A DNA stretch of 58,092 nucleotides, taken from the NCBI GenBank assembly GCA_031253795.1, contig JAIRVR010000047.1, positions 1-58,092 on the forward strand, read 5' to 3'. The notes below the pieces were generated by a model that saw only the letters and a list, made by a program, of their open reading frames with translations, ran no database searches and was not told where the DNA came from. This stretch comes from Burkholderiaceae bacterium (GTDB taxonomy: Bacteria > Pseudomonadota > Gammaproteobacteria > Burkholderiales > Burkholderiaceae_C). The translations under genes were made by a program, and so were the position numbers. Shown here piece after piece: positions 1-17,983 of this stretch. Positions within the stretch are counted from its first letter, which is position 1. The number at the start of each line of letters is the position of its first letter.

Positions 1-441
1 CAAGTTAGCCGTGAGCTGCGACGGCCCGAGCATGCGGTAGGTCTCCACCGCCTCACGCGCGCATCCCAGCGCCTCAGCCTTCGAATCGGCATCTCCCTGC
101 TCGGACAGGCGGTTGGCCAGGTTGCTGAGCGACGCAGCCAAGTCAGGCAGGTAAGCCGCGAGCTGCGACTGCCCGAGCTTGCGGTAGGTCTCTACCGCCT
201 CGCGCGCGCATCTCAGCGACGCGGCCTTCGAATAGGCATCGCCCTGCTTGGACAGGCGGCTGCTTAGGGTGTTAAGCGACGCGGCTAAGTCGGGCAGGTA
301 CGCCGCGGGCCAGGACTGCGCGAGCTTGCTATAGGTCTCCACCGCCTCGCGCGCACATCCGAGCGCCTCGGCACTCGAAGCGGCATCGCCAAGGTTCGAG
401 AGCCCGATGGCCAGGTTATTGAGCGCGCTGGCGCGACTGGC
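1..441 (-). repeat. Tandem 147-bp repeats coding 49-residue TPR-like units
   Basis: Three consecutive units with a 147-bp period, at about 1-147, 148-294 and 295-441. Each encodes a 49-residue unit with the core CAREAVETY and, in the more intact copies, AAYLPDLAASL and LSxQGDA. The units are very similar at nucleotide level, including synonymous positions, which suggests recent duplication or gene conversion. They continue past the left edge. They are in frame inside the large STAND-type gene. Confidence 0.9.
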
Positions 442-3300
442 CTCATTGGGGGCGGCATGCACTTCGCTGCGCCGGATGTCGACCGTCAGCGCTAGCAGCG
501 GCGTCGAATAGTTGGGCAAGCGCAGACTGGGTGCGATGGCTTGTTGCTCCGGCTGAGGCAACATCCTCCAGGCCTCAGTTACCGGAACGGTCAGAGTCAT
601 GCCGTGCTGGTGTACCGCGGAGATGAGCTGATTGCCGTGGCCGGTCCAGAGGGCAACCAGGGCATGCACCAAGCGCTGCGCGCCAAGGTCCAGCTTCGCC
701 GAGTCCAGCGCCTGAGGCCACGCGCGCGGCCACAAGCGAGCCAACACAGCCATCGCACGAGTGAGCCGCGCCTCTCCATGTCCAAAGACCAGTGCCAGCC
801 AGGCGGGCGCGCGATTGGCGCTCAGGCGTTCGACAAGCAGATGTTCGGCCAGCAAGTCGGGCGTGAGGGGGCCTATGCTGCCACCCTGGCTTGGGTAAAT
901 GCGTGCGAAAGCGCGCACCCATTCGCCGGGTTGGGCAAATTCCAGCTGCGTGAGCGCGGCGCCAAGCTCGGCTGCTTCCAAGCCCTGTGAAAACGCCAGC
1001 AATGCCAAGGCATCAGCCCAGTCGTCCCAAGCACCGGCGCCGGCCAGCGCAGTTGGGGCGTTGCGTTGCCAGTGCCGCCATTCGCGGCGCAACATGGCAG
1101 CCAGCAGCGCATAGCCATGGCCCGGCCGTTCACCGGCAAGTGCGGCCAGCGCGGCCAAATGCAGGTAGAGCGGGCGGGCATAATCGGTTGATGTTAGGTC
1201 TGGCCGCCAGGGATAGTTGGGCTCTGGCTCGCCGAGCGCGGCGGCGTAGTCGGACACGGCGGCGTCGAACGCCTGGGCACGGTCTTCCGGCGCATTGGGC
1301 CAGTCGGGCACGGCGGTCAGGCCGAGGTGGGCAGGCCCGGGTGTCAGCAGCGCGATCAGCTCGGTGTCGCCGTCCGGCTGGCGAGACAGCTGTTGCCACC
1401 AGTCGGTGCTGCGCGCCAAGCACAGCACGTGCACCCGTGGGCCATCCGGCCGCTTCAATGCGTCGTCGAGCGCCGTTCGCAGCCAGCGCAGCAGCTCGGG
1501 CTGCCATCCCTCGGCGTAGTCAACCACCAGCAGCAGTGGGCGCGAGTGGCCTAACAGCAGCCTTTGCCATGCGTCCAGAGCTTCGGCAAGCGGCTTGGCA
1601 GGCAGCCATAGGCCAAGCCAACCACGCTGCACGGCGCGCTGCAGCAGTTCGAGTGCACTGCGAGTCTTGCCCGCGCCCCCCGGGCCATAAATGACCTGAG
1701 TGGTCAGACGCGGCAGGCCCGGCGCCGTCACAGCGTCCAGAACGCCGTCCACAAATGCATCGCGTGCAGGGTGAAAGCGCACCACCTGGTCTTGCGCCGC
1801 CAACAGTGCCGCTGGGCCGATCTGCCGCACATGCGTCGCCGCCTGGGGCTTGGGCGGCTGCAAGAACTCAGGGGCATCGGTATCCATGGAGGCGTCGCCC
1901 GTGCCTGCACTTGCGGGTGACTTAGGTGACCGCGGCTGCACGCTTGCGGCCTGCAGCGCACCTCCTTCCGGCGGCGTGTCCTGCCCAGGCAAGGTACGTA
2001 GCAGCTGGACGCCCAGATGAAGCTCCAGCGCTTGTAAAGTGACTTCGGCGCAGTCCTTCCAGGTGTGGCTGCGGCGCAAGCGTTGGGCCAGCAGGACAGC
2101 ATCGGCCTTGGCTTCGGCTATGTGATCGCCCAGCTCGAGCAAGGCCTTTGCCACCGCAGTGACGTCGCCGTCGGTATGGGCCCCGGAGCCATCTTGGCTG
2201 CGCCGGCCTTCCACCTGCACCGCACGCACACTGCGGCCCAGGCCGGCGCCCTGCCAAGGTCCATGAAGCAGCCGATAGACGCCCGACTGCTGGCCGATGA
2301 CCACGGGCACCTGGCAGGCGATGGCTTCCCAGGCGACGAGCCCAAAGCCCTCGTGCCACGACGGCATCAACGCCACGCTGCTTCCGGCCAAATCGCTGAG
2401 ATACTGCAGCCGGTCTTCGGTGTAGGGCTGCACGTCGCATTCGACCATGCATTGGGCTTCGGCCTCCGCCTCTTTCACCACCTGGTCACGCTGTTCGGTC
2501 GGCACACCCCGCATGCGCAGGCTGGGTGAACGGCGCATCGCATGGCGGTCGTTGGCGGCCGACCTGCATTGGCCCACGGCACGGCCAAAGCCGCGCACGC
2601 CCAGCAGAGCCTGCTTGATTCGCTCGTCGTCGCTGCCGAGCCGCCCGCCCAGGAAGGCGATGAAGTTGGCCGGCGCCTGGTCGCTGAGGGGGACCTGCTG
2701 CGGGTCTAGCTCGGCCAGGCCTGGCACCAGCATCGTCACCGACGAGCGTTTGGCGGGCGGCAGAATGTCGCACAGGTGATCGGTCAGCATGGGTCCGACA
2801 GCCAAGCTAAGGTCGGCCTGTTCAAACAGTTCTTGCTGTGCCTGTCGCTTACCGGCCGCGCCGGCGCCGTCCTTTTTCACGTCCTGGTAGGCGCGGAAAG
2901 CCATGTGATGGACCAGCACTGCACGGCTGCCAGGGAGAGCAGCGCGAAGCGCCAACGCCAGCGCGCCGGTCTTATCGTCGTGCCCGAACCACAGCACGGT
3001 GCCGGAGTCCAGCGCCACACTGGATTCGGAGCGCACTGCCGCCAGCACGGAATCGGCCTTGTCGGCGGGCAGGTCGGGAGCGTCGTTGCCCAGCGACACC
3101 AGGCTTACATGGTGGCGTCGGGCGTCCTCCTGGTCGGCGGCATCGGCGTGCGGGACCACGCAAATCAGCTGGTACTCACGGCGCGGAGCGATGCCCAGCG
3201 ACCTCACCCATTCGACATTGAACGCGTTGATGCCGCCGTATCGCGGCCCCCAGGCGGTGGCCAGCACCACCAAGCATGCGTTAGGTTGCGCCATCGTCAT
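1..3300 (-). CDS. GT4 glycosyltransferase-like / STAND P-loop NTPase / TPR-repeat fusion protein (3' end off the left edge)
   Basis: I translated one uninterrupted frame from ATG 3300 to the left edge: 1,100 codons and no stop. Residues 1 to about 400 look like a GT-B (GT4) glycosyltransferase: an RYGGINAF loop near the N-terminus and an EGFGLVAWE segment with the family EX7E pair (E317, E325). After a Pro/Ala-rich linker comes a P-loop NTPase with Walker A GPGGAGKT (539-546) and a Walker B-like LLLVVDYAE (D594), then a helical region. From about residue 955 there are 49-residue TPR-like repeats. The order effector, NTPase, repeats is that of STAND/NLR-type conflict proteins. GT activity, oligomerisation and defence are inferred; I know of no named system with exactly this build. 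ATG 3294 is an alternative start with a better-spaced GAGAG. Confidence 0.82.
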   Translation of the reverse strand, partial: MTMAQPNACLVVLATAWGPRYGGINAFNVEWVRSLGIAPRREYQLICVVPHADAADQEDARRHHVSLVSLGNDAPDLPADKADSVLAAVRSESSVALDSGTVLWFGHDDKTGALALALRAALPGSRAVLVHHMAFRAYQDVKKDGAGAAGKRQAQQELFEQADLSLAVGPMLTDHLCDILPPAKRSSVTMLVPGLAELDPQQVPLSDQAPANFIAFLGGRLGSDDERIKQALLGVRGFGRAVGQCRSAANDRHAMRRSPSLRMRGVPTEQRDQVVKEAEAEAQCMVECDVQPYTEDRLQYLSDLAGSSVALMPSWHEGFGLVAWEAIACQVPVVIGQQSGVYRLLHGPWQGAGLGRSVRAVQVEGRRSQDGSGAHTDGDVTAVAKALLELGDHIAEAKADAVLLAQRLRRSHTWKDCAEVTLQALELHLGVQLLRTLPGQDTPPEGGALQAASVQPRSPKSPASAGTGDASMDTDAPEFLQPPKPQAATHVRQIGPAALLAAQDQVVRFHPARDAFVDGVLDAVTAPGLPRLTTQVIYGPGGAGKTRSALELLQRAVQRGWLGLWLPAKPLAEALDAWQRLLLGHSRPLLLVVDYAEGWQPELLRWLRTALDDALKRPDGPRVHVLCLARSTDWWQQLSRQPDGDTELIALLTPGPAHLGLTAVPDWPNAPEDRAQAFDAAVSDYAAALGEPEPNYPWRPDLTSTDYARPLYLHLAALAALAGERPGHGYALLAAMLRREWRHWQRNAPTALAGAGAWDDWADALALLAFSQGLEAAELGAALTQLEFAQPGEWVRAFARIYPSQGGSIGPLTPDLLAEHLLVERLSANRAPAWLALVFGHGEARLTRAMAVLARLWPRAWPQALDSAKLDLGAQRLVHALVALWTGHGNQLISAVHQHGMTLTVPVTEAWRMLPQPEQQAIAPSLRLPNYSTPLLALTVDIRRSEVHAAPNEASRASALNNLAIGLSNLGDAASSAEALGCAREAVETYSKLAQSWPAAYLPDLAASLNTLSSRLSKQGDAYSKAASLRCAREAVETYRKLGQSQLAAYLPDLAASLSNLANRLSEQGDADSKAEALGCAREAVETYRMLGPSQLTANL

Positions 3301-3788
3301 CTCTCTTTCCGATTGTTTTTTTGCTGACTTCGTACGGCCAGGTTGATGCAGTCTAGTCGAGACCTCGAACGGCCAGGGCGTGCTAGGAGTGCGCTGGGGG
3401 TAAAACGCCCGACCAGACTGCGACCGTTCGCGAGCGACTCTTGACGACCGGCACAGGTCATCGCGCATTTACAAGCCATTCGGCTCGACAGACTGCGGGT
3501 GGCAGGGCCACCACTTGTGCTGAGCTTGATGCCAACACGTCTCCCGGCGACCGCAGCCCGCAGGCAGCGAATTGCTACACATTCAATAGCAACAAACACA
3601 GCCGGCATTGGGTGGAACACCTGGAACACCATGAATTCTTGCAGTGCTCCACCACGAAAAAGAGAAAACAATATTCAAATCAATAACTTACCTTACATGG
3701 AACACCGGAACACCTGGAACACCACATAAATACAAGTCGCATGCGATAGCAGCAGCATGTTTCGGCCTTGGTGCTTCTGCTAATCACT
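3301..3788. other. AT-rich intergenic region between the STAND gene and the integrase
   Basis: I find no convincing gene in these 488 bases. The few short open frames lack ribosome sites and family motifs. Composition falls well below the flanking genes between about 3560 and 3780. The region contains a cluster of GGAACACC repeats (listed separately) and must hold the promoter of the minus-strand STAND gene. A purine-rich GGAAAGAGAG lies immediately before ATG 3300 and is the likely ribosome site. Confidence 0.7.
3613..3723. repeat. Five GGAACACC iterons in two clusters
   Basis: GGAACACC begins at 3614, 3623, 3699, 3707 and 3716. Within clusters the spacing is 9, 8 and 9 bases; the clusters are about 76 bases apart. 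Most copies extend to TGGAACACC. Such phased short direct repeats beside an integrase gene could be arm-type integrase or excisionase sites, or operator iterons for the divergent region. The function is not established. Confidence 0.75.
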
Positions 3789-5027
3789 TCAGGCAGCACG
3801 CACACCAGCAAGGTCTGCCGCCATGGCGTCCAGCCTGTCTGCCCACCACTGCATCAGTTCACGGCGCTGGGCCAGATACTGCGCTTTGTTGTAGACGCCC
3901 TCAGTGCCTCTGACCTTGTGAGCCAGGGCGCTATCCACGATGCGCCATTCCTTCCCGGCCTCGTTGGCCGCCGTGCTGAACAGGTGCCGCATGCCGTGGG
4001 GTGTCTGCCGCCCCTTGTAGCCCATGCGGGAAAGGGCCTGATTGAACGTCATGTTGCTGATGGGCGTGTCCATGCTGGCACGGCCCGGGAACAGGAGCGG
4101 GCTCTTTCCGGCGTACTGCTTCAGTTCATGCAACAGCTTGACGGCCTGGCCTGGCAGCGGGAACACGAACTCGCGGCGCTCCTTCTTCCGGCTGGCGGCC
4201 ACAGTCCACAGCCCCGCCTCAAGGTCGAACTCATCCCATGGAGCTTCACGCAGCTCGGACGGGCGCACGGCCAACAACGCCAGCAACTGCAACCCGATGG
4301 ACAGAGAGCGCGAAGGATGGGCGCGCATCGCACGAATCAGGCCGGGAATCTCTGCTTGGGATACATGGGCAAAGTTCTCATTGCGGCTGGGCGCGATGAA
4401 CTTGTGCAGGTTGTCGATGGGGTTGAACTGTGAGCGGTCGGTTACCTGGGCCAGGGCGTAGATGTCGCGGCAGTAGGCCCGTGCCTTTGCGATGGTTTCG
4501 AGAATGCCCTTTTCCTCCATCCTCTTGAACAGGGCAAACCATTCGCTGGCGGGGATGGCTGTGTAGTCCCGCGCTCCCATGCTGGGCAGAACGTGGTTTT
4601 CGATCATGGCCTTGGCGCGGTCGTAGGTGTCACCTGTCCAGCTCTTGGCGTCCTTCTTGACCTTAAGCCACTCCGCTGCCAGTTGGGCGAATGTCTCGCG
4701 TGGCTCCACACCTTCCAGCGCAGGCGGGCTTTTCGCCTGTGGCAGCGGAATTCCCTCATCCTTGGACTGCTTGAGCCACTGGCGGGCCTTCTCGCGCGCC
4801 TGCTGGCCGGTGAGCTGATGCGTACCCTTGCCGTATCCACCAATCCCCAGCCAAGCCCATTTCCCTTCTGGCGTCTTGTACCTGAGCTGCCAATCCTTCG
4901 TGCCGCTCGGCTTCACTCGCAGGTACACGCCATCGCCGTGCCGCTCACGGTACATGGTGGCGCCCGGCTCAAGGCTCTCTATCACCGTATCCGGCATGGG
5001 CCTTCGCTTGATTTCTTCTCGCTTCAT
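3789..5027 (-). CDS. Tyrosine recombinase (P4-type phage/island integrase)
   Basis: A site-specific integrase of 412 residues from ATG 5027. The N-terminus has the DUF4102-like arm-binding fold (a DGVYLRVKPSG segment), followed by a core-binding domain and a C-terminal catalytic domain. The catalytic set is visible: R255 in AVRPSEL, H344-x-x-R347, H370 and the nucleophile Y379 in EGVYNK. The frame stays open to ATG 5186, but that start lies inside the tRNA terminator hairpin, so I prefer 5027. MPDTVIESL (ATG 4997) is another option. It lies next to the 3' end of tRNA-Thr, the usual arrangement when the integrase targets that tRNA. The island therefore extends leftwards from the tRNA. Confidence 0.93.
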   Translation of the reverse strand: MKREEIKRRPMPDTVIESLEPGATMYRERHGDGVYLRVKPSGTKDWQLRYKTPEGKWAWLGIGGYGKGTHQLTGQQAREKARQWLKQSKDEGIPLPQAKSPPALEGVEPRETFAQLAAEWLKVKKDAKSWTGDTYDRAKAMIENHVLPSMGARDYTAIPASEWFALFKRMEEKGILETIAKARAYCRDIYALAQVTDRSQFNPIDNLHKFIAPSRNENFAHVSQAEIPGLIRAMRAHPSRSLSIGLQLLALLAVRPSELREAPWDEFDLEAGLWTVAASRKKERREFVFPLPGQAVKLLHELKQYAGKSPLLFPGRASMDTPISNMTFNQALSRMGYKGRQTPHGMRHLFSTAANEAGKEWRIVDSALAHKVRGTEGVYNKAQYLAQRRELMQWWADRLDAMAADLAGVRAA

Positions 5028-5029
5028 GC

Positions 5030-5089
5030 CTTGTATCCCTGAGTTAGAAAAACCAGAAGATTTTGCAGGGATACACGAGGGGATACAAG
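5030..5089. repeat. Three GGGATACA repeats just upstream of the integrase gene
   Basis: GGGATACA occurs at 5068-5075 and, as GGGGATACAAG, at 5079-5089. An inverted copy, CTTGTATCCCT, is at 5030-5040, so the outer two form an inverted repeat. They lie between the integrase start and the tRNA end, where arm-type integrase sites or an autoregulatory operator would be expected. This is an inference from position only. Confidence 0.55.
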
Positions 5090-5156
5090 AAAAGTCGCGC
5101 TGTGTAGCTGCATGCATGGGCATATACAGGCATGCTTGCAGGGCTAAACCCTTGTC

Positions 5157-5194
5157 AAAAAACAAAAAACCCGCATGTTTGAGCATGCGGGTTT
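5157..5194 (-). terminator. Rho-independent terminator after tRNA-Thr
   Basis: A perfect stem, AACCCGCATG (5168-5177) with CATGCGGGTT (5184-5193), and a 6-base loop. On the minus strand it is followed by TTTTTTG and a further T run. It begins 8 bases past the tRNA 3' end. Confidence 0.88.
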
Positions 5195-5201
5195 ATGTTT
5201 T

Positions 5202-5277
5202 TGGTGCCGGTTGTCGGATTCGAACTGACGACCTACCGCTTACAAGGCGGGTGCTCTACCAACTGAGCTAAACCGGC
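5202..5277 (-). tRNA. tRNA-Thr (anticodon UGU)
   Basis: The minus-strand cloverleaf begins GCCGGTT and ends AACCGGC-A-CCA, giving a 7-bp acceptor stem and an encoded CCA. The D arm GCTC/GAGC and the loop AGTTGGTA are standard. The anticodon loop reads CTTGTAA, giving UGU for threonine. The T loop is TTCGAAT; its stem, GTCAG with CCGAC, has one A-C mismatch. The 3' end abuts the island and is the likely attachment site. The matching direct repeat should lie beyond the left edge. Confidence 0.95.
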
Positions 5278-7443: not shown

Positions 7444-8859
7444 TCAGTGCGGCTTGAACGTCACGCGATCAGGAACGGGCTTGGGCTCGCCCAGCCGGCT
7501 CCACCAGGGCATGAGCAGGAAGAAGCCGAAGTAAAACAGCGTTCCGACCTGGGACACGCGCTCGCCTATGGGTGACGGCGGCTGCACGCCAAGATAGGCC
7601 AGGATCACGAAGTTCACCACAAAGATGCCGTAGAGGTACTTGTGCCAGCTCGGGCGTTAGCGAATGGACTTGACCGGACTGCAGTCCAGCCCGGGCCGCG
7701 CACACAGGATGAGGACGGCGCCGCCCATGACGACCACGCCCCAGAACTTGGCATCGATGGACAGCATCATGGCGATGGCACCCAGAGCCACGATGGCCAC
7801 CGCACCCTTGGCAAAGCCGGGAAGGCGCGACTTGAGCACGCCGAAGCCGGCCCCCAGCACCACGCAGGCGATCAACACATACATCATCTCGCTGGTGATG
7901 GCACGCAGCATCGAATAGAACGGCGTGAAGTACCAGACCGGGGCGATGTGCGAAGGCGTCTTGAGCGGATCGGCCGGGATGAAGTTGTTGTACTCCAGGA
8001 AGTAGCCTCCGAACTCGGGCGCGAAGAACACCACGGCCGAGAACAGGAACAGAAACACCGTCACGCCGAAGATGTCGTGCACCGTGTAGTAGGGATGGAA
8101 GGGAATGCCGTCCAGCGGGTGGCCCTTGTCGTCCCTGGGCGCCTTGGGACCCTTGATCTCGATGCCGTCAGGGTTGTTCGAACCCACATCATGCAGCGCC
8201 AGCAGGTGGGCCACGACCAGACCCAGCAACACCAGGGGCACGGCGATGACGTGGAAGCTGAAGAAGCGGTTGAGCGTCGCATCGCCCACGACGTAGTCGC
8301 CGCGGATCAGAAGTGCCAGGTCAGGACCGATGAAGGGAATGGCCGAGAACAGGTTCACGATCACCTGGGCGCCCCAGTACGACATCTGACCCCAGGGCAG
8401 CAGATAGCCCATGAAGGCCTCCGCCATCAGGACCAGGAAGATGGCGCAACCGAAGATCCAGACCAGTTCGCGCGGCTTGCGGTAGGAACCATACAGAAGA
8501 CCGCGGAACATGTGAAGATAGACGACGATGAAGAAGGCCGAAGCACCCGTGGAGTGCATGTACCGGATCAGCCAGCCCCATGGCACATCGCGCATGATGT
8601 ACTCGACCGAGGCAAATGCCTTTTCGGCATCGGGCTTGTAGTGCATCACGAGGAAGATGCCCGTGACGATCTGGATCACCAGCACCAGCAGGGCCAGCGA
8701 ACCGAAGATGTACCAGAAGTTGAAATTCTTCGGAGCGTAGTACTCCGACATGTGCACACGGTAGGCGTCGAAGGCCGTGGGGAAACGGTTCTCGAACCAG
8801 TTGGTGAGCTTGGCGCCGGTCGGCGCATTGGGATCGATGTCCTTGAATTCGTGGGCCAT
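7444..8859 (-). pseudogene. petB: Cytochrome b of the bc1 complex, interrupted by an in-frame TAA
   Basis: The coding sequence runs from ATG 8859 to TGA at 7444-7446, 471 codons, the normal family length. Haem ligands (HSTGASAFF region; HVIAVPLVLLG region) and the Qo-site PVWYFTPFYSML are intact. Codon 401 is TAA (7657-7659), where relatives have Tyr after SPVKSIR. The downstream frame, RPSWHKYLYGIF to VTFKPH, reads normally. Just before the stop, about 7682-7712, the residues CARPGLDC replace the hydrophobic FFLPWLDR-type segment I expect. As written, translation stops at 400 residues and loses the last transmembrane region. This is either a local sequence error or a true nonsense allele. 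Confidence 0.85.
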
Positions 8860-8872
8860 TGTTCTTGCTCCC

Positions 8873-9469
8873 TCAAGCCTTGTCTTCACCGATCAGGAGC
8901 TTGGTCTCCGACAGGTACATGTGGGGCGGCACCTGCAGGTTGTCCGGCGCCGGCTTGTTCTTGAAGACCCGGCCCGCCATGTCGAAGGTCGAACCGTGGC
9001 AGGGGCACAGAAAGCCGCCCTTCCAGTCGTTGGGCAGCGAGGGCTGGGCGCCGGACTGGAACTTGTCGGTGGGCGAGCAGCCCAGATGAGTGCAGATGCC
9101 GACGACCACAAGCACTTCGGGCTTGATCGAGCGGTTCTCGTTCATCGCGTAGGGAGGCGTGAACTCTTCGGGATGGCGCTTGGACTGGGGATCTGCCAAT
9201 TGGCTGTCGAGCGCCGGCAATTCCTGGATCTGCTCGGGCGTGCGCTTGATGATCCACACGGGCTTGCCGCGCCACTCCACCGTGAGCTTTTCCCCATCCT
9301 TGAGCGAGGAGATGTCGACCTCCACGGCGGCACCGGCGGCCTTGGCCTTTTCCGATGGCTGGAAGGTACTCACAAAGGGGACGGCTGTCGCCACGCCGCC
9401 CACCGCACCAGCACAGGCCGACGTGATGATCCACGTCCGCTTGCTGGAGTCGATTGGAGTGTCACTCAT
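8873..9469 (-). CDS. petA: Rieske iron-sulfur protein of the bc1 complex
   Basis: A 198-residue protein, first gene of the petABC operon. The two cluster-binding boxes are C126-T-H128-LGC131 and C155-P-C157-H158-GS, with the disulfide pair C131/C157. The N-terminus (SSKRTWIITSACAGAVGG) is an uncleaved Tat-type anchor, so its export depends on TatABC, encoded near 51-53 kb here. It moves electrons from ubiquinol to cytochrome c1. Confidence 0.95.
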   Translation of the reverse strand: MSDTPIDSSKRTWIITSACAGAVGGVATAVPFVSTFQPSEKAKAAGAAVEVDISSLKDGEKLTVEWRGKPVWIIKRTPEQIQELPALDSQLADPQSKRHPEEFTPPYAMNENRSIKPEVLVVVGICTHLGCSPTDKFQSGAQPSLPNDWKGGFLCPCHGSTFDMAGRVFKNKPAPDNLQVPPHMYLSETKLLIGEDKA

Positions 9470-9555
9470 GGGGTTCCTCGAAGTACGTCGCTTGAGTTGG
9501 GGTCAACAATAAATTGTAGCGGGGGCAGTAAGGTTATTCCACTCCGCCTCCAGCG

Positions 9556-9585
9556 TTGACAGGCTCCAAAGCCGCGCAATACTGC
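9556..9585 (+). promoter_or_regulatory. Possible sigma-70 promoter for mscL
   Basis: A perfect -35 hexamer TTGACA (9556-9561) is followed after 18 bases by TACTGC, a weak -10. It lies about 35 bases before the mscL ribosome site GGAG (9609-9612), in the divergent petA-mscL gap. Confidence 0.35.
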
Positions 9586-9618
9586 GCTATCTCAAACTCT
9601 TTAAAAATGGAGCCAGCT

Positions 9619-10056
9619 ATGGGCATGATGCAGGAATTTCGCGAGTTCGCAGTTAAGGGAAACGTGGTAGATCTCGCCGTCGGCGTCATCATCGGCGGAG
9701 CATTTGGCAAAATCGTCGATTCTGTGGTAAACGATCTGATCATGCCGGTCGTGGGCCTCGTTTTCGGCAAGCTGGATTTCTCCAATCTGTTCCTCGTATT
9801 GGGAACCGTGCCGCAAGGAACGGCCATGACGCTGGATGCCCTGAAAAAGGCCGGCGTTCCCGTGTTTGCCTATGGCAACTTCATCACGGTGGCGGTCAAT
9901 TTCGTGATCCTGGCCTTCATCATTTTCATGATGGTCAAGCAGATCAACCGCCTGCGCCGCGAGGCCCCGGCCGCACCGGCGCCTGCCCCCGTCACCCCCG
10001 AGGACATCGTGCTGCTGCGCGAGATCCGCGACAGCCTCAAGAAGGGCACGCCCTGA
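9619..10056 (+). CDS. mscL: Large-conductance mechanosensitive channel MscL
   Basis: A 145-residue inner-membrane channel that opens under turgor and protects cells from hypo-osmotic shock. The conserved start [20 protein letters not shown] and the glycine-rich first helix ([21 protein letters not shown]) are present. A second membrane helix lies at about 75-100, and the C-terminal bundle is charged. ATG 9619 was chosen because GGAG sits 6 bases upstream; ATG 9607 would add only MEPA. It is transcribed divergently from petA and convergently with pdxA. Confidence 0.95.
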
Positions 10057-10097
10057 ACGGCACGAAGGCCTGACGCCCCGCTTGATGGGGCTCAAGA

Positions 10098-10125
10098 CCC
10101 GTGGCATGCGTGCCACGGGCGTTTT
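10098..10125 (+). terminator. Terminator after mscL
   Basis: Stem CCCGTGGCA (10098-10106) with TGCCACGGG (10111-10119), a TGCG loop, then CGTTTT. It lies in the convergent mscL/pdxA gap. Confidence 0.8.
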
Positions 10126-10148
10126 CCACTAAGGGTTTGCCGGGGCTT

Positions 10149-11213
10149 TCACCGTGGCCCGGAGGGTGCGGCCAGGCTGCGCGCCACTCGGACGGCCTCG
10201 ATCAGGCTGGCTGCCTCGGCCACGCCCTGGCCGGCGATGTCAAAGGCCGTGCCGTGATCGGGACTCGTGCGCACCAGAGGCAGGCCCAGGGTCACATTCA
10301 CGCCCTTTTCCACCCCCAGGTACTTCACGGGGATCAGGCCCTGGTCGTGGTACATGGCCAGCACCACGTCGAACTCGCCGCGGCGCCCGGGCGCATGGCG
10401 CGCGCGCATGAAGACCGTGTCGGGAGCGAAGGGCCCATGGACGTCCAGGCCCTGGTCGCACGCACTGGCGATGGCCGGTGCAATGGTTTCCACCTCCTCC
10501 CGGCCGAACAGGCCGCCCTCGCCCGCATGCGGATTCAGGCCCGCGACGCCAATGCGTGGTGCACGACCCAGGCTGCGCAGCAGGGCCTCGTGGGTGATGT
10601 GCAGCGTCTGCAGCAGGTTGTCCCGCGTGACTGCGGCAATGGCATCGCGCAGGGACACATGGATGCTGACCAGCACGGTGCGCAGCTCGTCGTTGGCCAG
10701 CATCATGCGCACGGGCATGCGGGCCAGGTCCACGCCCGCATGGCGCGCCGCCTCGGCCTGCAGCAATTCGGTGTGGCCCGGAAAATCCACGCCCGCCGCA
10801 TGCAAGGCCTCCTTGTGCAGTGGCGCCGTGACCAGGGCTGCCACCTCGCCGCGCAAGGCAGCCTGCGCGGCCCAGACCACGCAGCGCGCCGCCGCGTCGC
10901 CCGCCTCGGCGCTGACCCGACCCCAGGCAGCCGGCCCCGGCAGGCCAGGCAATTCCAGCAGGGGAATGCAGTGGGGCGGCACCTGGTCCAGCTGCTGGGG
11001 TGACTGCAGCACGGCCACGGGCATGGGCATGGAGCTGCCACATGCGCGCGCCGCCACGGCCGCCGCGCGGCGCAGGGTCTGCAGCTCGCCCACCACGAAG
11101 CACCCGCGCAGGGCATGCGGTGACTCCAGGAAGGCCTTGGCGATGATTTCAGGGCCTATGCCGGCACTGTCACCCTGGGTGATGGCGATGGCGCCACGGG
11201 GGGATTCAGGCAT
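10149..11213 (-). CDS. pdxA: 4-hydroxythreonine-4-phosphate dehydrogenase
   Basis: A 354-residue NAD-dependent enzyme of pyridoxal 5'-phosphate synthesis; it oxidises 4-phosphohydroxy-L-threonine. Family blocks are clear: ITQGDSAGIGPEI at the N-terminus, the metal ligands in FPGHTE and MYHDQGLIPVKY, and RTSPDHGTAFDIAG near the C-terminus. The first block has GDSAG where most members have GDPAG, a conservative variation that may point to a PdxA2-like subgroup. It is 17 bases downstream of the Nif3-family gene, on the same strand. Confidence 0.9.
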   Translation of the reverse strand: MPESPRGAIAITQGDSAGIGPEIIAKAFLESPHALRGCFVVGELQTLRRAAAVAARACGSSMPMPVAVLQSPQQLDQVPPHCIPLLELPGLPGPAAWGRVSAEAGDAAARCVVWAAQAALRGEVAALVTAPLHKEALHAAGVDFPGHTELLQAEAARHAGVDLARMPVRMMLANDELRTVLVSIHVSLRDAIAAVTRDNLLQTLHITHEALLRSLGRAPRIGVAGLNPHAGEGGLFGREEVETIAPAIASACDQGLDVHGPFAPDTVFMRARHAPGRRGEFDVVLAMYHDQGLIPVKYLGVEKGVNVTLGLPLVRTSPDHGTAFDIAGQGVAEAASLIEAVRVARSLAAPSGPR

Positions 11214-11230
11214 GGGATCTCCGGTCCGGA

Positions 11231-11980
11231 TCAGGCGGGATTGTCAATGTCGATGAAGCGGTGCTCCAGCCCCAGCTCGGCCGCCACATGACCCGCCAGA
11301 GCGGGCGCGCCATAGCGCTCGGTCGCATGGTGGCCTGCCGCGATGAAGCCCACGCCGGTCTCGCGCGCCAGATGGGCCTGGGGTTCGGAAATTTCGCCCG
11401 TGACAAAGGCATCGGCCCCGGCCGCGATGGCCGCCTCGAAGAAGCCCTGGGCACCGCCGGTGCACCAGGCCACGCGGCGCACGGGGCGTCCTGCCCCCCC
11501 CACGCACACAGGCGTCCGGCCCAGGACTTGCTGCACATGCCGTGCCAGCGCGCCTGCGTCGGCGAAATCGGCCGGCGCCATCCAGCCCAGGTTCTGGTCA
11601 CCGAACACCGCCTGGCCTGCCAAACCCAGGCGCTGGCCCAGTTGCGCGTTGTTGCCCCATTGCGCATGGGCATCGAGCGGCAGGTGGTAGGCAATCAGAT
11701 TGATGTCATGCGCCAACAGCAGGCGGATGCGCTCCTTGAGCCATCCGGTGATGCGCCCGTCCATGCCGCGCCAGAACAGGCCATGGTGCACGAAAACGGC
11801 ATCGGCGCCATCGGCGATGGCCGCCTCGATCAGCGCACGGCTGGCCGTCACGCCGCTGACGATGCGGCGGATCTCGCCGCGGCCTTCGACCTGCAGGCCG
11901 TTGGGACCATAGTCCTTGAAGCGCTCGGGCTGCAGCAGCCCGTCGAAGTGGGCCAGAAGTTCTTGTCGCGTAGTGCTCAT
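11231..11980 (-). CDS. Nif3-like dinuclear metal centre protein (DUF34, YbgI family)
   Basis: A 249-residue conserved protein. Family landmarks are RFKDYGPNGLQVEG, DAVFVHHGLFW (metal His pair), LIAYHLPLDAH, FVTGEISEPQ and the late AGHHATERYG. Members form toroidal hexamers with a dinuclear metal site; the cellular role is still disputed. Start ATG 11980 matches homologue ends; ATG 11998 would add MDDNPS, and neither has a clear ribosome site. In relatives this gene lies near petA and the htrA-type protease, as here. Confidence 0.87.
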   Translation of the reverse strand: MSTTRQELLAHFDGLLQPERFKDYGPNGLQVEGRGEIRRIVSGVTASRALIEAAIADGADAVFVHHGLFWRGMDGRITGWLKERIRLLLAHDINLIAYHLPLDAHAQWGNNAQLGQRLGLAGQAVFGDQNLGWMAPADFADAGALARHVQQVLGRTPVCVGGAGRPVRRVAWCTGGAQGFFEAAIAAGADAFVTGEISEPQAHLARETGVGFIAAGHHATERYGAPALAGHVAAELGLEHRFIDIDNPA

Positions 11981-12119
11981 GGAAGGATTGTCATCCATAA
12001 CAAAACGCTTTCGGCCGGTGGAGCCATACCCCGCGCATCGGGCGACGCCTGGAAAAGGCGTCGCCAAGGGCCCTGCCGCACAGGCCGCCGAATGCACCGG
12101 GCTGCCGCCTGTGGCGGCC

Positions 12120-13442
12120 TCAGCCCTTGGGTTGCCAGCCCTTGCAGGCCAGGGGCCAGAAGCCGATGGCCGCACCCAGGATGCCCATGGCCGCCACGTA
12201 GTGGGCCGGGGCCATCACATCGACCTGCTGCCACACGGACACCAGCATGGGCGTCATGCCGCCGAACACGGCATAGGCCATGTTGTAGGCAAAGGACAAG
12301 CCCGTGAAGCGCACTTCGGCCGGGAAGGCGCGCACGCCCACCACGGGCAGCAGCGAAATGGCGCCCACGAAAAAGCCCACCAGGGCATAGCTCCAGACCA
12401 GGGAGGATGCCGTACCGGGCAGGTTCAGATAGAACACATAGGCCGTCACCGTCATGCCCAGCCAGCCCGTGACCATGGCCGTGCGCGTGCCCATGCGGTC
12501 CGACAGCCAGCCCCAGAACACGCAGCCCAGGGTCAGGGTCACCGTGGCCACGGCATTGGCCTTCATGGCCAAGGCCGCGTCGATGTGAAAAACCTTTTGC
12601 AGATAGGCGGGCGTGAACAGCACGACCACCACGATGGCCGTGGACAGCACCCAGGTCATCAGCGCCACCAGCAGGCAGGCCTGGCGGTGGTCGCGCACGA
12701 TGGTCTTGAGCGGCAGCTCGCGGTCGGCCTGCTTGCGCGCCATCAGCTCCTGGAAGATGGGCGTTTCATGCAGGAACTTGCGCAGGTAGACCGAGATCAG
12801 GCCGAACACGCCGCCCAGGATGAAGGGCATGCGCCAGGCCCAGTCGTGGATTTCTTCGGCACTGTAGGCGCTGTTGAGCCAGACACCTATGATGGAGCCC
12901 AGGAAAATGCCGCCCGTGATGCCCGAAGTCAGCGAGCCGATGGCAAAGCCGTAGTGGCGTGCGGGAGCATGCTCGGCCACGAAGACCCAGGCACCCGGCA
13001 TCTCACCGCCGATGGCAGCGCCCTGCAGCACGCGCATGGCCAGCAGCAGCAGCGGCGCAGCAATGCCGATGGAGGCATAGGTGGGCAGCAGGCCGATCAC
13101 CAGGGTGGGCACGGCCATGAGGAAGATGGACAGCGTGAACATCTTCTTGCGGCCGAGAATGTCGCCGAAGTGGGCGATCAGGATGCCGCCAATGGGGCGC
13201 GCCAGATAGCCGGCCGCGAAAATGCCCAGCGTCTGCAGCTGGCGCAGCCAGTCAGGCATTTCGGCGGGAAAGAACAGCTTGCCGATGACGTTGGCGAAGA
13301 AGACGAAAACAACGAAGTCGTAGAACTCCAGGGTACCGCCCAGGGCGGACAGGCCCAGGGTCTTGTAGTCCTCCCGGTTCAGGGGACGTGCGGTCGCAGC
13401 AGCAGGGGCCGTGCCCGGCTGCGCTTGGTCAAGCGTAGTCAT
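12120..13442 (-). CDS. MFS transporter, metabolite:H+ symporter (MHS) family
   Basis: A 440-residue inner-membrane protein with 12 predicted helices. MHS-family features are visible: GGTLEFYDFVVFVFFA in helix 1, RPIGGILIAHFGDILGRKK at the 2-3 loop, and MRVLQGAAIGGEMPGAWVF in helix 4. Relatives import dicarboxylates, citrate, proline/betaine or shikimate together with protons. The substrate cannot be told from the sequence. It is divergent from the protease gene, and no metabolic genes adjoin to suggest a substrate. Confidence 0.88.
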   Translation of the reverse strand: MTTLDQAQPGTAPAAATARPLNREDYKTLGLSALGGTLEFYDFVVFVFFANVIGKLFFPAEMPDWLRQLQTLGIFAAGYLARPIGGILIAHFGDILGRKKMFTLSIFLMAVPTLVIGLLPTYASIGIAAPLLLLAMRVLQGAAIGGEMPGAWVFVAEHAPARHYGFAIGSLTSGITGGIFLGSIIGVWLNSAYSAEEIHDWAWRMPFILGGVFGLISVYLRKFLHETPIFQELMARKQADRELPLKTIVRDHRQACLLVALMTWVLSTAIVVVVLFTPAYLQKVFHIDAALAMKANAVATVTLTLGCVFWGWLSDRMGTRTAMVTGWLGMTVTAYVFYLNLPGTASSLVWSYALVGFFVGAISLLPVVGVRAFPAEVRFTGLSFAYNMAYAVFGGMTPMLVSVWQQVDVMAPAHYVAAMGILGAAIGFWPLACKGWQPKG

Positions 13443-13763
13443 GGTTTTTTTCCAGGGATCGAACAGCAGGACGGCGCGGTGGAAGCCGGCGCAACGGATG
13501 AGCGTGCGGCGGCAGATCGTTCTGCAAGGCTTCGGGATCGGAGGACTTGGCTCTCTCTTGCGGCCAGCCGGTAAGGTGGCCCAACAGCGAACGCGGCATG
13601 GCGCAGTCGTTGGGGGATTCTAGGGTTTGCACTGAATCTGTGTGGCCAGCACGGCTTTGGCGGTGCGGTGGCGCCCCATGGCCTCGGGCGGCCCGGCCAC
13701 GCCCGGCCCTGCGACATGCCGCACAATGGTGGCTTGTCCGAACCGTCCAAAGCCCGATATTTC
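13443..13763. other. Divergent intergenic region, MFS gene / protease gene
   Basis: These 321 bases must hold the promoters of two divergent genes. I see no gene, repeat or clear hairpin. The open frames crossing it are leader extensions of the neighbours without family homology. Confidence 0.5.
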
Positions 13764-14915
13764 ATGAAACGCACCTGGCTGCTGTTTTCGCAGGTGGTCA
13801 CCATCCTGGTGGCCGCCTACTTCGTCGTCGCCACCCTGCAGCCCGACTGGCTGCGCCGTGGCGCGGTCCGCAGCAATGCCGGTATCGCCCTTCTGGAAGC
13901 ACCTGCCACGCCTGTGGGAGAAGTCAGCCCCGGCAGCTTTGCACCGGCAGCCAAGAAGGCCGCGCCCGCCGTGGTCAGCATCAACACCAGCAAGGCCGTG
14001 CGCCACCCACGCAGCAATGACCCCTGGTTCCAGTTCTTCTTCGGCGACCAGGGCACGCAGGAGCAGGCGGGCCTGGGCAGCGGCGTGATCATCAGCACCG
14101 ATGGCTACATACTGACCAACAACCACGTGGTCGAAGGCGCGGACGACATCGAGGTGACCCTGACCGACAGCCGCCAGGCCAAGGCCCAGGTCATCGGCAC
14201 GGATCCCGAGACCGACCTGGCCGTGCTCAAGATCGCGCTCGACAAGCTGCCCGTCATCGTGCTGGGCAATTCCGACCAGGTGGCCGTGGGCGACCGCGTG
14301 CTGGCCATCGGCAACCCCTTCGGGGTGGGTCAGACCGTGACCAGCGGCATCATCAGCGCCCTGGGCCGCAGCCAGCTGGGCATCAACACCTTCGAAAACT
14401 TCATACAGACCGACGCCGCCATCAACCCCGGCAACTCGGGTGGCGCCCTGGTGGATGCCACGGGCAATCTGCTGGGCATCAACACGGCCATTTACTCGCG
14501 CTCGGGTGGCAGCATGGGCATCGGCTTTGCGATTCCCGTGTCCACGGCCAAGCTGGTGCTCGATGGCATCGTCAAGGATGGCCGCGTCGTGCGCGGCTGG
14601 ATAGGGGTCGAGCCCAACGAGCTGTCGCCCGAACTGGCCGAGACCTTCGGCGTCAAGGCCGATTCGGGCGTCATCATCACGGGCGTGCTGCAGGCCGGGC
14701 CCGCGGCCCAGGCCGGCATGCGCCCTGGCGACGTGATCGTCCAGGTCGGCGACAAGCCCGTGCGCAATGTGTCAGAACTGCTGACCGCCGTGGCCGCCCT
14801 CAAGCCCGGCGAAGCCGCCAAATTCGAAGTGCGCCGTGGCGAAGGCCCGGTAGAGCTGCAAATCACACCCGGCCTGCGCCCCGCGCAATCCGCCCAGCGC
14901 ATGCAGCGCCGCTGA
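13764..14915 (+). CDS. HtrA/DegS-type periplasmic serine protease, one PDZ domain
   Basis: A 383-residue protein with an N-terminal membrane anchor (about 5-24), a trypsin-like domain and a single C-terminal PDZ domain (about 285-375). The catalytic triad is visible: H121 (LTNNHVVEG), D151 (PETDLAVLK) and S225 (NPGNSGGAL). One PDZ and an uncleaved anchor resemble DegS, the stress-sensing protease that cuts anti-sigma-E, more than two-PDZ DegP. ATG 13764 begins the anchor; upstream in-frame codons look non-coding. In relatives it sits beside tatC; here tatC is 38 kb away. Confidence 0.9.
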   Translation: MKRTWLLFSQVVTILVAAYFVVATLQPDWLRRGAVRSNAGIALLEAPATPVGEVSPGSFAPAAKKAAPAVVSINTSKAVRHPRSNDPWFQFFFGDQGTQEQAGLGSGVIISTDGYILTNNHVVEGADDIEVTLTDSRQAKAQVIGTDPETDLAVLKIALDKLPVIVLGNSDQVAVGDRVLAIGNPFGVGQTVTSGIISALGRSQLGINTFENFIQTDAAINPGNSGGALVDATGNLLGINTAIYSRSGGSMGIGFAIPVSTAKLVLDGIVKDGRVVRGWIGVEPNELSPELAETFGVKADSGVIITGVLQAGPAAQAGMRPGDVIVQVGDKPVRNVSELLTAVAALKPGEAAKFEVRRGEGPVELQITPGLRPAQSAQRMQRR

Positions 14916-17242: not shown

Positions 17243-17983
17243 TCAGGCCGTGAGTTCGTCAGCCCGCGCCTGGGCCGCGGCGAAGTCGAGGTCACCCGAG
17301 TAGATGGCACGGCCGCAGATCACGCCCTCCACGCCCTCGTCCTCCACCTTGCACAGGGCTTCGATATCGGCCATGCCGGACAGGCCGCCCGAGGCGATGA
17401 CGGGAATCTTCAGCGACTGGGCCAGCTTGACTGTGGCATCGATGTTGATGCCGCTGAGCATGCCGTCGCGGCCGATGTCGGTATAGATGATGGATTCCAC
17501 GCCCCAGTCTTCGAAGCGCTTGGCCACCGAGAAAACGTCCTGGCCCGTGAGCTTGCTCCAGCCGTCGATGGCCACCTTGCCGTCCTTGGCGTCCAGGCCG
17601 ACGATGACATGGCCGCCAAAGGCACTGCAGGCATCCTGCAGGAAGCCGGGGTTCTTCACGGCGGCCGTGCCGATGATCACGTACTGGATGCCCGCATCGA
17701 TGTATTTCTCGATGGTGTCCAGGTCGCGGATGCCACCGCCCAGCTGTACGGGGATCTCTCCATCGACCTCCTTGAGAATGGACTTGATGGCTGCCAGGTT
17801 CTTGGGCTGGCCCGCAAACGCGCCGTTGAGATCAACCAGGTGAAGCCGGCGCGCGCCGGCGTCAAGCCAGCGGCGGGCGATGACGGCAGGGTCTTCGCCG
17901 AACGTGGTCGACTGGTCCATATCCCCCTGGATGAGGCGTACACAGTGGCCGTCCTTGAGATCGATGGCAGGGATGAGCAGCAT
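17243..17983 (-). CDS. hisA: Phosphoribosylformimino-AICAR ribotide isomerase
   Basis: A 246-residue TIM-barrel enzyme for step four of histidine synthesis (ProFAR to PRFAR). Catalytic Asp residues are in the first strand ([11 protein letters not shown]) and in YTDIGRDGM. Phosphate-binding GG motifs are at the ends of the later strands ([18 protein letters not shown]). It is the last gene of the hisC-B-H-A group and is followed at once by a strong terminator, whereas hisF normally follows. Confidence 0.96.

Follow-up and report, generated by a model that had tools for sequence, protein, structure and literature searches.

A GT4 glycosyltransferase, P-loop NTPase and TPR gene on a tRNA-Thr island of a Burkholderiaceae bacterium, a candidate NLR-like defence protein

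The window analysed here (58,092 nucleotides) is the entire contig JAIRVR010000047.1 (C47) of the Burkholderiaceae bacterium assembly GCA_031253795.1, which consists of 77 contigs and is 59% complete. At its left end a GT4 glycosyltransferase, a P-loop NTPase and tetratricopeptide (TPR) repeats are encoded in a single open reading frame (ORF) on the minus strand, beside a tyrosine integrase gene and a tRNA-Thr gene (Table 1). Since the window is the whole contig, the gene is truncated by the assembly, and the minus-strand frame runs without a stop codon from the contig start to position 3468. Numbered from the ATG at 3300, the residues singled out in the first-pass annotation (E317 and E325, GPGGAGKT at 539-546 with K545, and D594) are all in place in this unbroken frame.

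Table 1. Features of the left end of contig C47 (coordinates in the window; residues of the GT4-NTPase-TPR protein)
Feature	Position	Strand	Remarks
GT4-NTPase-TPR gene, 5' part	1..3300	-	1100 residues from ATG 3300; off contig edge
TPR array, 49-aa units, residues 955-1100	1..438	-	continues off contig
Helical region linking NTPase to TPRs, residues 761-945	466..1020	-	
P-loop NTPase and following helices, residues 496-760 (nSTAND5-like)	1021..1815	-	PF25199 in 24 of 26 aligned members at E<=0.01
Walker B end, DYAE 594-597	1510..1521	-	D594, Y595, E597 invariant; A596 nearly invariant
Walker A, GPGGAGKT 539-546	1663..1686	-	G539, G541, G542, G544, K545, T546 invariant
Linker with low-confidence stretch	1816..2043	-	pLDDT (predicted local distance difference test) <50 at residues 438-473
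GT4-conflict glycosyltransferase domain, residues 11-419	2044..3270	-	PF20706, E 6.6e-80
EX7E pair, E317...E325	2326..2352	-	26-sequence alignment: E317 invariant, E325 nearly invariant
Five GTGTTCC copies, iteron-like	3614..3722	-	six more on contig C65 at 17754-17840
Tyrosine integrase ORF with Arm-DNA-bind_3 domain	3789..5186	-	
Attachment-site copy (3' end of tRNA-Thr)	5202..5221	-	other copy on contig C65 at 17502-17520
tRNA-Thr (TGT)	5202..5277	-	

The N-terminus has the GT-B fold of family GT4 and an intact EX7E pair, as had been proposed, and it matches the 'GT4-conflict' family with 269 bits against a curated cut-off of 26. R220 and K229, which would be the phosphate-binding arginine and lysine of GT4 enzymes, are likewise invariant among the 26 aligned sequences. 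The best 50 matches of a fold search were all glycosyltransferase-like and covered residues up to 433, and a sequence search of solved structures with our profile A2 returned glycosyltransferases only. From GT4 chemistry it follows that the donor is a nucleotide-sugar. In structure, the top matches are GT4 enzymes of metabolism (MshA, BshA and HepE among them), which speaks for another explanation, namely that the protein is a ligand-controlled glycosyltransferase of ordinary physiology (e.g. protein or metabolite glycosylation) with no role in defence; we return to it with the neighbouring genes.

In the middle of the protein the NTPase carries both a Walker A motif (GxGGxGKTR) and a Walker B motif (DYAE). 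The nSTAND_NTPase5 family (PF25199) is matched over residues 517-637 with 27.6 bits, under its curated cut-off of 34, and the best member of the alignment reaches E 1.1e-8, while hhalign comparisons of the NTPase with single sequences gave probabilities of 7.5% for NACHT and 10.7% for nSTAND3. Motif conservation and the family-wide PF25199 matches are in keeping with an NTPase with STAND-type sequence features, as suggested in the first-pass annotation, the window protein itself falling below the cut-off.

The C-terminal repeats consist of a 147-bp (49-aa) tandem unit and are predicted to form a TPR superhelix, in agreement with their earlier description as TPR-like. The 49-aa unit is common to the window, to a phage-borne copy (locus L050, see below) and to locus L065, an intact homologue from Parasulfuritortus cantonensis. 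Split as here, the latter (7992-13361) has 17 consecutive units; most are near-identical, and two unit versions recur. Between the window and L050, the ratio of nonsynonymous to synonymous substitution rates (dN/dS, Nei-Gojobori method, a single pair) was 0.20 for the GT4 domain, 0.35 for the linker, 0.21 for the NTPase, 0.31 for the following helices and 0.65 for the TPRs, a value that repeat conversion can inflate. The catalytic parts are therefore constrained (about 0.2) and the TPRs less so. This constraint, and an ORF that stays open over 1100 codons, argue against the gene being in decay on the island and now without function, an explanation that would fit the partial DUF927 gene adjoining the repeats on contig C65 and the broken state of some relatives (L058 is disrupted by a transposase gene, L085 and L091 are split into two ORFs) but that we judge to be very improbable.

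A search of the same genome gave one further match, TPR repeats at the extreme end of contig C65, with 70% protein identity and 84.8% DNA identity over 164 bp, in a frame that closes with a stop codon. The end of C65 is thus probably the 3' tail of the window gene, the portion that the first-pass annotation had hoped to recover from beyond the left edge, and the unassembled gap between the two contigs would hold TPR repeats only.

Beyond the end of the TPRs, C65 carries the partial DUF927 gene, of which only positions 198-283 of the 284 in PF06048 are present, and a second attachment-site copy with 19 bases compared to the 20-base tRNA-Thr 3' end, one base being absent. The ORFs past this copy are, by eye, dciA and secA. 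Of 40 relatives from the same genus, at least 14 (the number measured) have the tRNA-Thr flank at most 150 bp from the dciA flank, and in five of those 14 (G002, G006, G021, G023 and G036) the flank matches overlap. A string search at six of the relatives' loci found the tRNA 3' end intact in three, the exact string not being present in the other three. Of the three with the intact end, L104 and L114 have a terminator-like hairpin after it that resembles the hairpin past the C65 copy, and in L107 the hairpin is different. Given the adjacent flanks in relatives, the attachment-site copies and the hairpins, the left end of C47 and the right end of C65 are therefore the two ends of one tRNA-Thr insertion. 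The integrase, the duplicated tRNA 3' end and the empty site in relatives are all features of a tRNA-integrated island, and the earlier placement of the gene beside an integrase on such an island is borne out. Two clusters of GTGTTCC (five and six copies) flank the island cargo on both sides and are reminiscent of P4, which has two repeat regions.

One scan of genome contigs gave 38 loci, in 24 of which GT4 and GxGGxGKT lie within one intact ORF. In 20 of these the match extends beyond query residue 1000 and so reaches the TPRs, a contig end truncates three more (L064, L084 and L087), and L082 stops before the TPRs; both motifs are also present in the two split genes. The motif SWHEGFGLxxW[E/D]A is found in all 38 loci (with D in L072 and L094), its SWH part belonging to one of the two scan patterns and so being favoured by the search. 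Record titles include Pseudomonadota, Geobacter, Trichlorobacter, Pelobacter, Syntrophales, Nitrospirae/Nitrospira and one metagenome-assembled genome of Acidobacteriota. The GT4-NTPase-TPR group is a coherent family. It is also rare and patchy: with profile A2 at E<=1e-30 it was detected in three of 398 genomes of the phylum, and the NTPase profile matched five of 399 genomes of the order and three of 369 of the class, the genome studied here being included in each count. All five order genomes also carry a GT4-conflict match above 250 bits, which was found in seven of 399 (own included) with a line that was set after seeing a gap from 257 to 82.5 bits; the PF20706 count at its cut-off (379 of 399 order genomes) is uninformative since other GT4 enzymes also pass, as they did in 14 of 14 control genomes. 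Among plasmids, 35 of 72,556 records match, and among the 30 listed matches three cover the GT4 part (Hymenobacter, Rhizobium and Robbsia) and 27 the helical/TPR part only.

Other architectures were seen among six proteins scanned for domains: GT4 with NACHT in L095, COR-A with GT4 in L054, nSTAND3 with GT4 in L055 and GT4 alone in L092. In L094 and L096 (1280 and 1409 aa, from Paraburkholderia and Comamonas) the GT4-conflict domain precedes a B12-binding and a radical SAM domain in one protein, and L097, L098, L099 and L101 resemble these two in having GT4 and in length.

The two other phylum genomes match profile A2 in the NTPase part only, at three loci. In L128 and L129 an HD-type N-terminus replaces GT4 in the same ORF as the NTPase, with an HD-CE match above the cut-off (one of 14 control genomes gave a match and none above the cut-off), and a sequence search of the PDB with these two N-termini gave no match. 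In L130 only a short segment precedes the NTPase, and the TPRs are regular. The class search added G978, with an N-terminal GT4, and G1148, whose N-terminus is short and whose match is weak and partial. Because the same NTPase-TPR chassis carries HD-CE, GT4 occupies an exchangeable N-terminal slot, and this exchange together with the catalytic conservation favours an effector over a sensor.

The sensor alternative would have GT4 act as a receptor or gate that binds a nucleotide-sugar or an invader glycan and tunes the NTPase, the output being elsewhere. A candidate for such an output exists in four Geobacter-like genomes (L067, L071 from Trichlorobacter thiogenes, L074 and L086), where the stop codon of the GT4-NTPase-TPR gene and the start codon of a 469-aa gene overlap as ATGA, so that from their arrangement the two genes form what looks to be a two-gene unit; in L067, the one of the four that was scanned, this gene encodes SLFN_AlbA_2 and HATPase_c_4. 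In PMC8195603, moreover, GT4 is described as often C-terminal in STAND fusions and is likened to lectin-type domains, and the abstract puts it beside sensing domains. However, the catalytic residues are retained, GT4 is N-terminal here and is swapped for HD-CE on the same chassis, and inspection by eye of the stretches of the island that were read showed no AlbA_2-like gene, so that we find a receptor role unlikely.

The neighbourhoods of the relatives were compared using 147 ORFs within 4.5 kb of 27 loci, taken from 158 after 11 were excluded by size limits; they come from a simple ORF caller and some may not be genes. None of the 25 most frequent of their 231 Pfam families belongs to glycan synthesis, so there is no sign of glycan-synthesis operons around the relatives, and a capsule or lipopolysaccharide enzyme is unsupported. 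The same result, the mobile locations and the patchy distribution count against the ordinary-physiology explanation, to which many copies standing singly among housekeeping genes (by eye) lend some weight and which we consider improbable. Defence-like and mobile neighbours are suggestive only. A Wadjet locus surrounds L091 (202-13892): the split gene and a ParE gene separate its jetA from its jetB-C-D, with DUF3375/JetA at 12456-13862 on one side and genes for DUF4194, an SbcC-like protein and JetD on the other. A JetD-like ORF adjoins L057, with three upstream ORFs without a match. Toxin-type neighbours comprise HipA with HTH by L051 and ParE or PemK by L066, L080 and L091; L058 has transposase genes beside and inside it and L087 has a NERD neighbour. 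SLFN_AlbA_2 genes (five of the 147 neighbours) occur near L067, near L083 and on the phage contig, and apart from the Jet genes the PADLOC matches of the neighbours were mostly generic.

The phage-borne relative L050 matches the window protein over residues 1-1100, its best segment being 76% identical. It lies on a 32.9-kb IMG/VR contig on which terminase, portal, capsid, scaffold, sheath, tape-measure and tail proteins match PHROGs, in an order that we take to be P2-like. The gene begins about 2.4 kb past the portal gene, with an opposite-strand ORF without a PHROG match and a methyltransferase fragment in between, and the contig ends within the TPRs. Past the late tail gene, the P2-like contig (L062, 1-1171) holds P-loop ATPase-like and small membrane-protein-like ORFs that may be further cargo.

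Taken together, the domains, the conserved catalytic and P-loop motifs, the island with its attachment sites and empty sites, the phage relative and the N-terminal exchange are best explained if the window gene by itself encodes a defence protein that acts inside the cell, is NLR-like (STAND-type) and travels as cargo on a small tRNA-Thr island, which we regard as probable. Several observations weigh against it: the failure of any PADLOC model to match the protein, the sub-threshold nSTAND5 score, the best 50 fold-search matches, which include no STAND structure and none of which reaches the NTPase, the five viral scans that gave a single viral record, with none of 50,697 phage records matching, the many or most relatives that stand singly, by eye, amid housekeeping genes, and the neighbourhood comparison, which has no random-gene baseline behind it.

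In its resting state the protein would be kept inactive by its TPR array and linker. Binding of an invader-made or invader-altered molecule by the TPRs could then trigger nucleotide exchange in the P-loop NTPase and oligomerisation, which would bring the N-terminal GT4 domains together and allow them to move sugar from a nucleotide-sugar onto an intracellular target, somewhat more likely an essential host component, leading to growth arrest, than a phage molecule. We infer TPR sensing, oligomerisation, glycosyl transfer, the defence outcome and the target, the order of events being modelled on NLR-like proteins. A more specific version is offered tentatively, as one possibility: a mobile, phage-carried NLR whose homogenising 49-aa TPR arrays sense the invader, so that oligomerisation would let GT4 glycosylate an essential cell component and kill or arrest the cell, on a modular nSTAND5-TPR chassis with an N-terminal slot for GT4, HD-CE or a short segment and with an SLFN_AlbA_2 partner in Geobacter-like bacteria.

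A PADLOC 2.0.0 scan of the window protein matched no family at E<=1, so the protein corresponds to no system modelled there. The first-pass annotation had nevertheless gone too far in calling the protein undescribed in kind, since the Pfam family PF20706 exists and section 15 of PMC8195603 predicted in 2021 that GT4 in effector position, including in fusions to STAND NTPases, acts as a counter-invader. In that paper GT4 is proposed as a conflict effector in bacteria and some invertebrate immune proteins, and the text names AP-ATPase, NACHT, SWACOS and nSTAND2 as partners, GT4 often being C-terminal to them. The kind is thus known as a prediction, and what is new are the island ends and empty sites, the coherent family, the phage copy, the HD-CE exchange and the dN/dS pattern. 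Our searches of open-licence papers found no experiment on the GT4-NTPase-TPR layout, its mobile contexts or the HD-CE exchange, nor one on a GT4 conflict effector in such a setting. The family provides mobile candidates that consist of a single gene and keep their active site intact, among them the relative found towards the hotspot on a P2-like contig, and allows a direct question, whether glycosylation is an output of bacterial NLR-like immunity.

The bacterial NLR-like STAND proteins bNACHT and Avs combine an effector, an NTPase switch and a repeat sensor in one protein, a plan shared with the window protein, which differs from them in its NTPase family, in its effector and in having no PADLOC match. 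With P4-like satellites, whose cargo lies next to the integrase (PMC9122126), the island shares integrase-proximal cargo, a partial DUF927 gene and two short-repeat clusters; the likeness seen extends to these features, and we do not class the island as a satellite. PMC9122126 also places the defence hotspot of E. coli P2, for old/tin-type cargo, between gpA and the portal gene gpQ. L050 resembles such cargo in that, on a P2-like contig, it lies past the portal gene on the hotspot side, but differs in being separated from that gene by 2.4 kb with two or more ORFs and in that the contig breaks inside it, the gpA side not being in view; the window copy differs in lying on a tRNA island. A close likeness in domains is to the GT4-conflict proteins of PMC8195603, with which the window protein shares the GT4 domain, the fusion to a STAND-type P-loop NTPase and the predicted counter-invader role, while here GT4 is N-terminal and is joined to an nSTAND5-like NTPase and TPRs, a layout that may itself be listed elsewhere in that paper.
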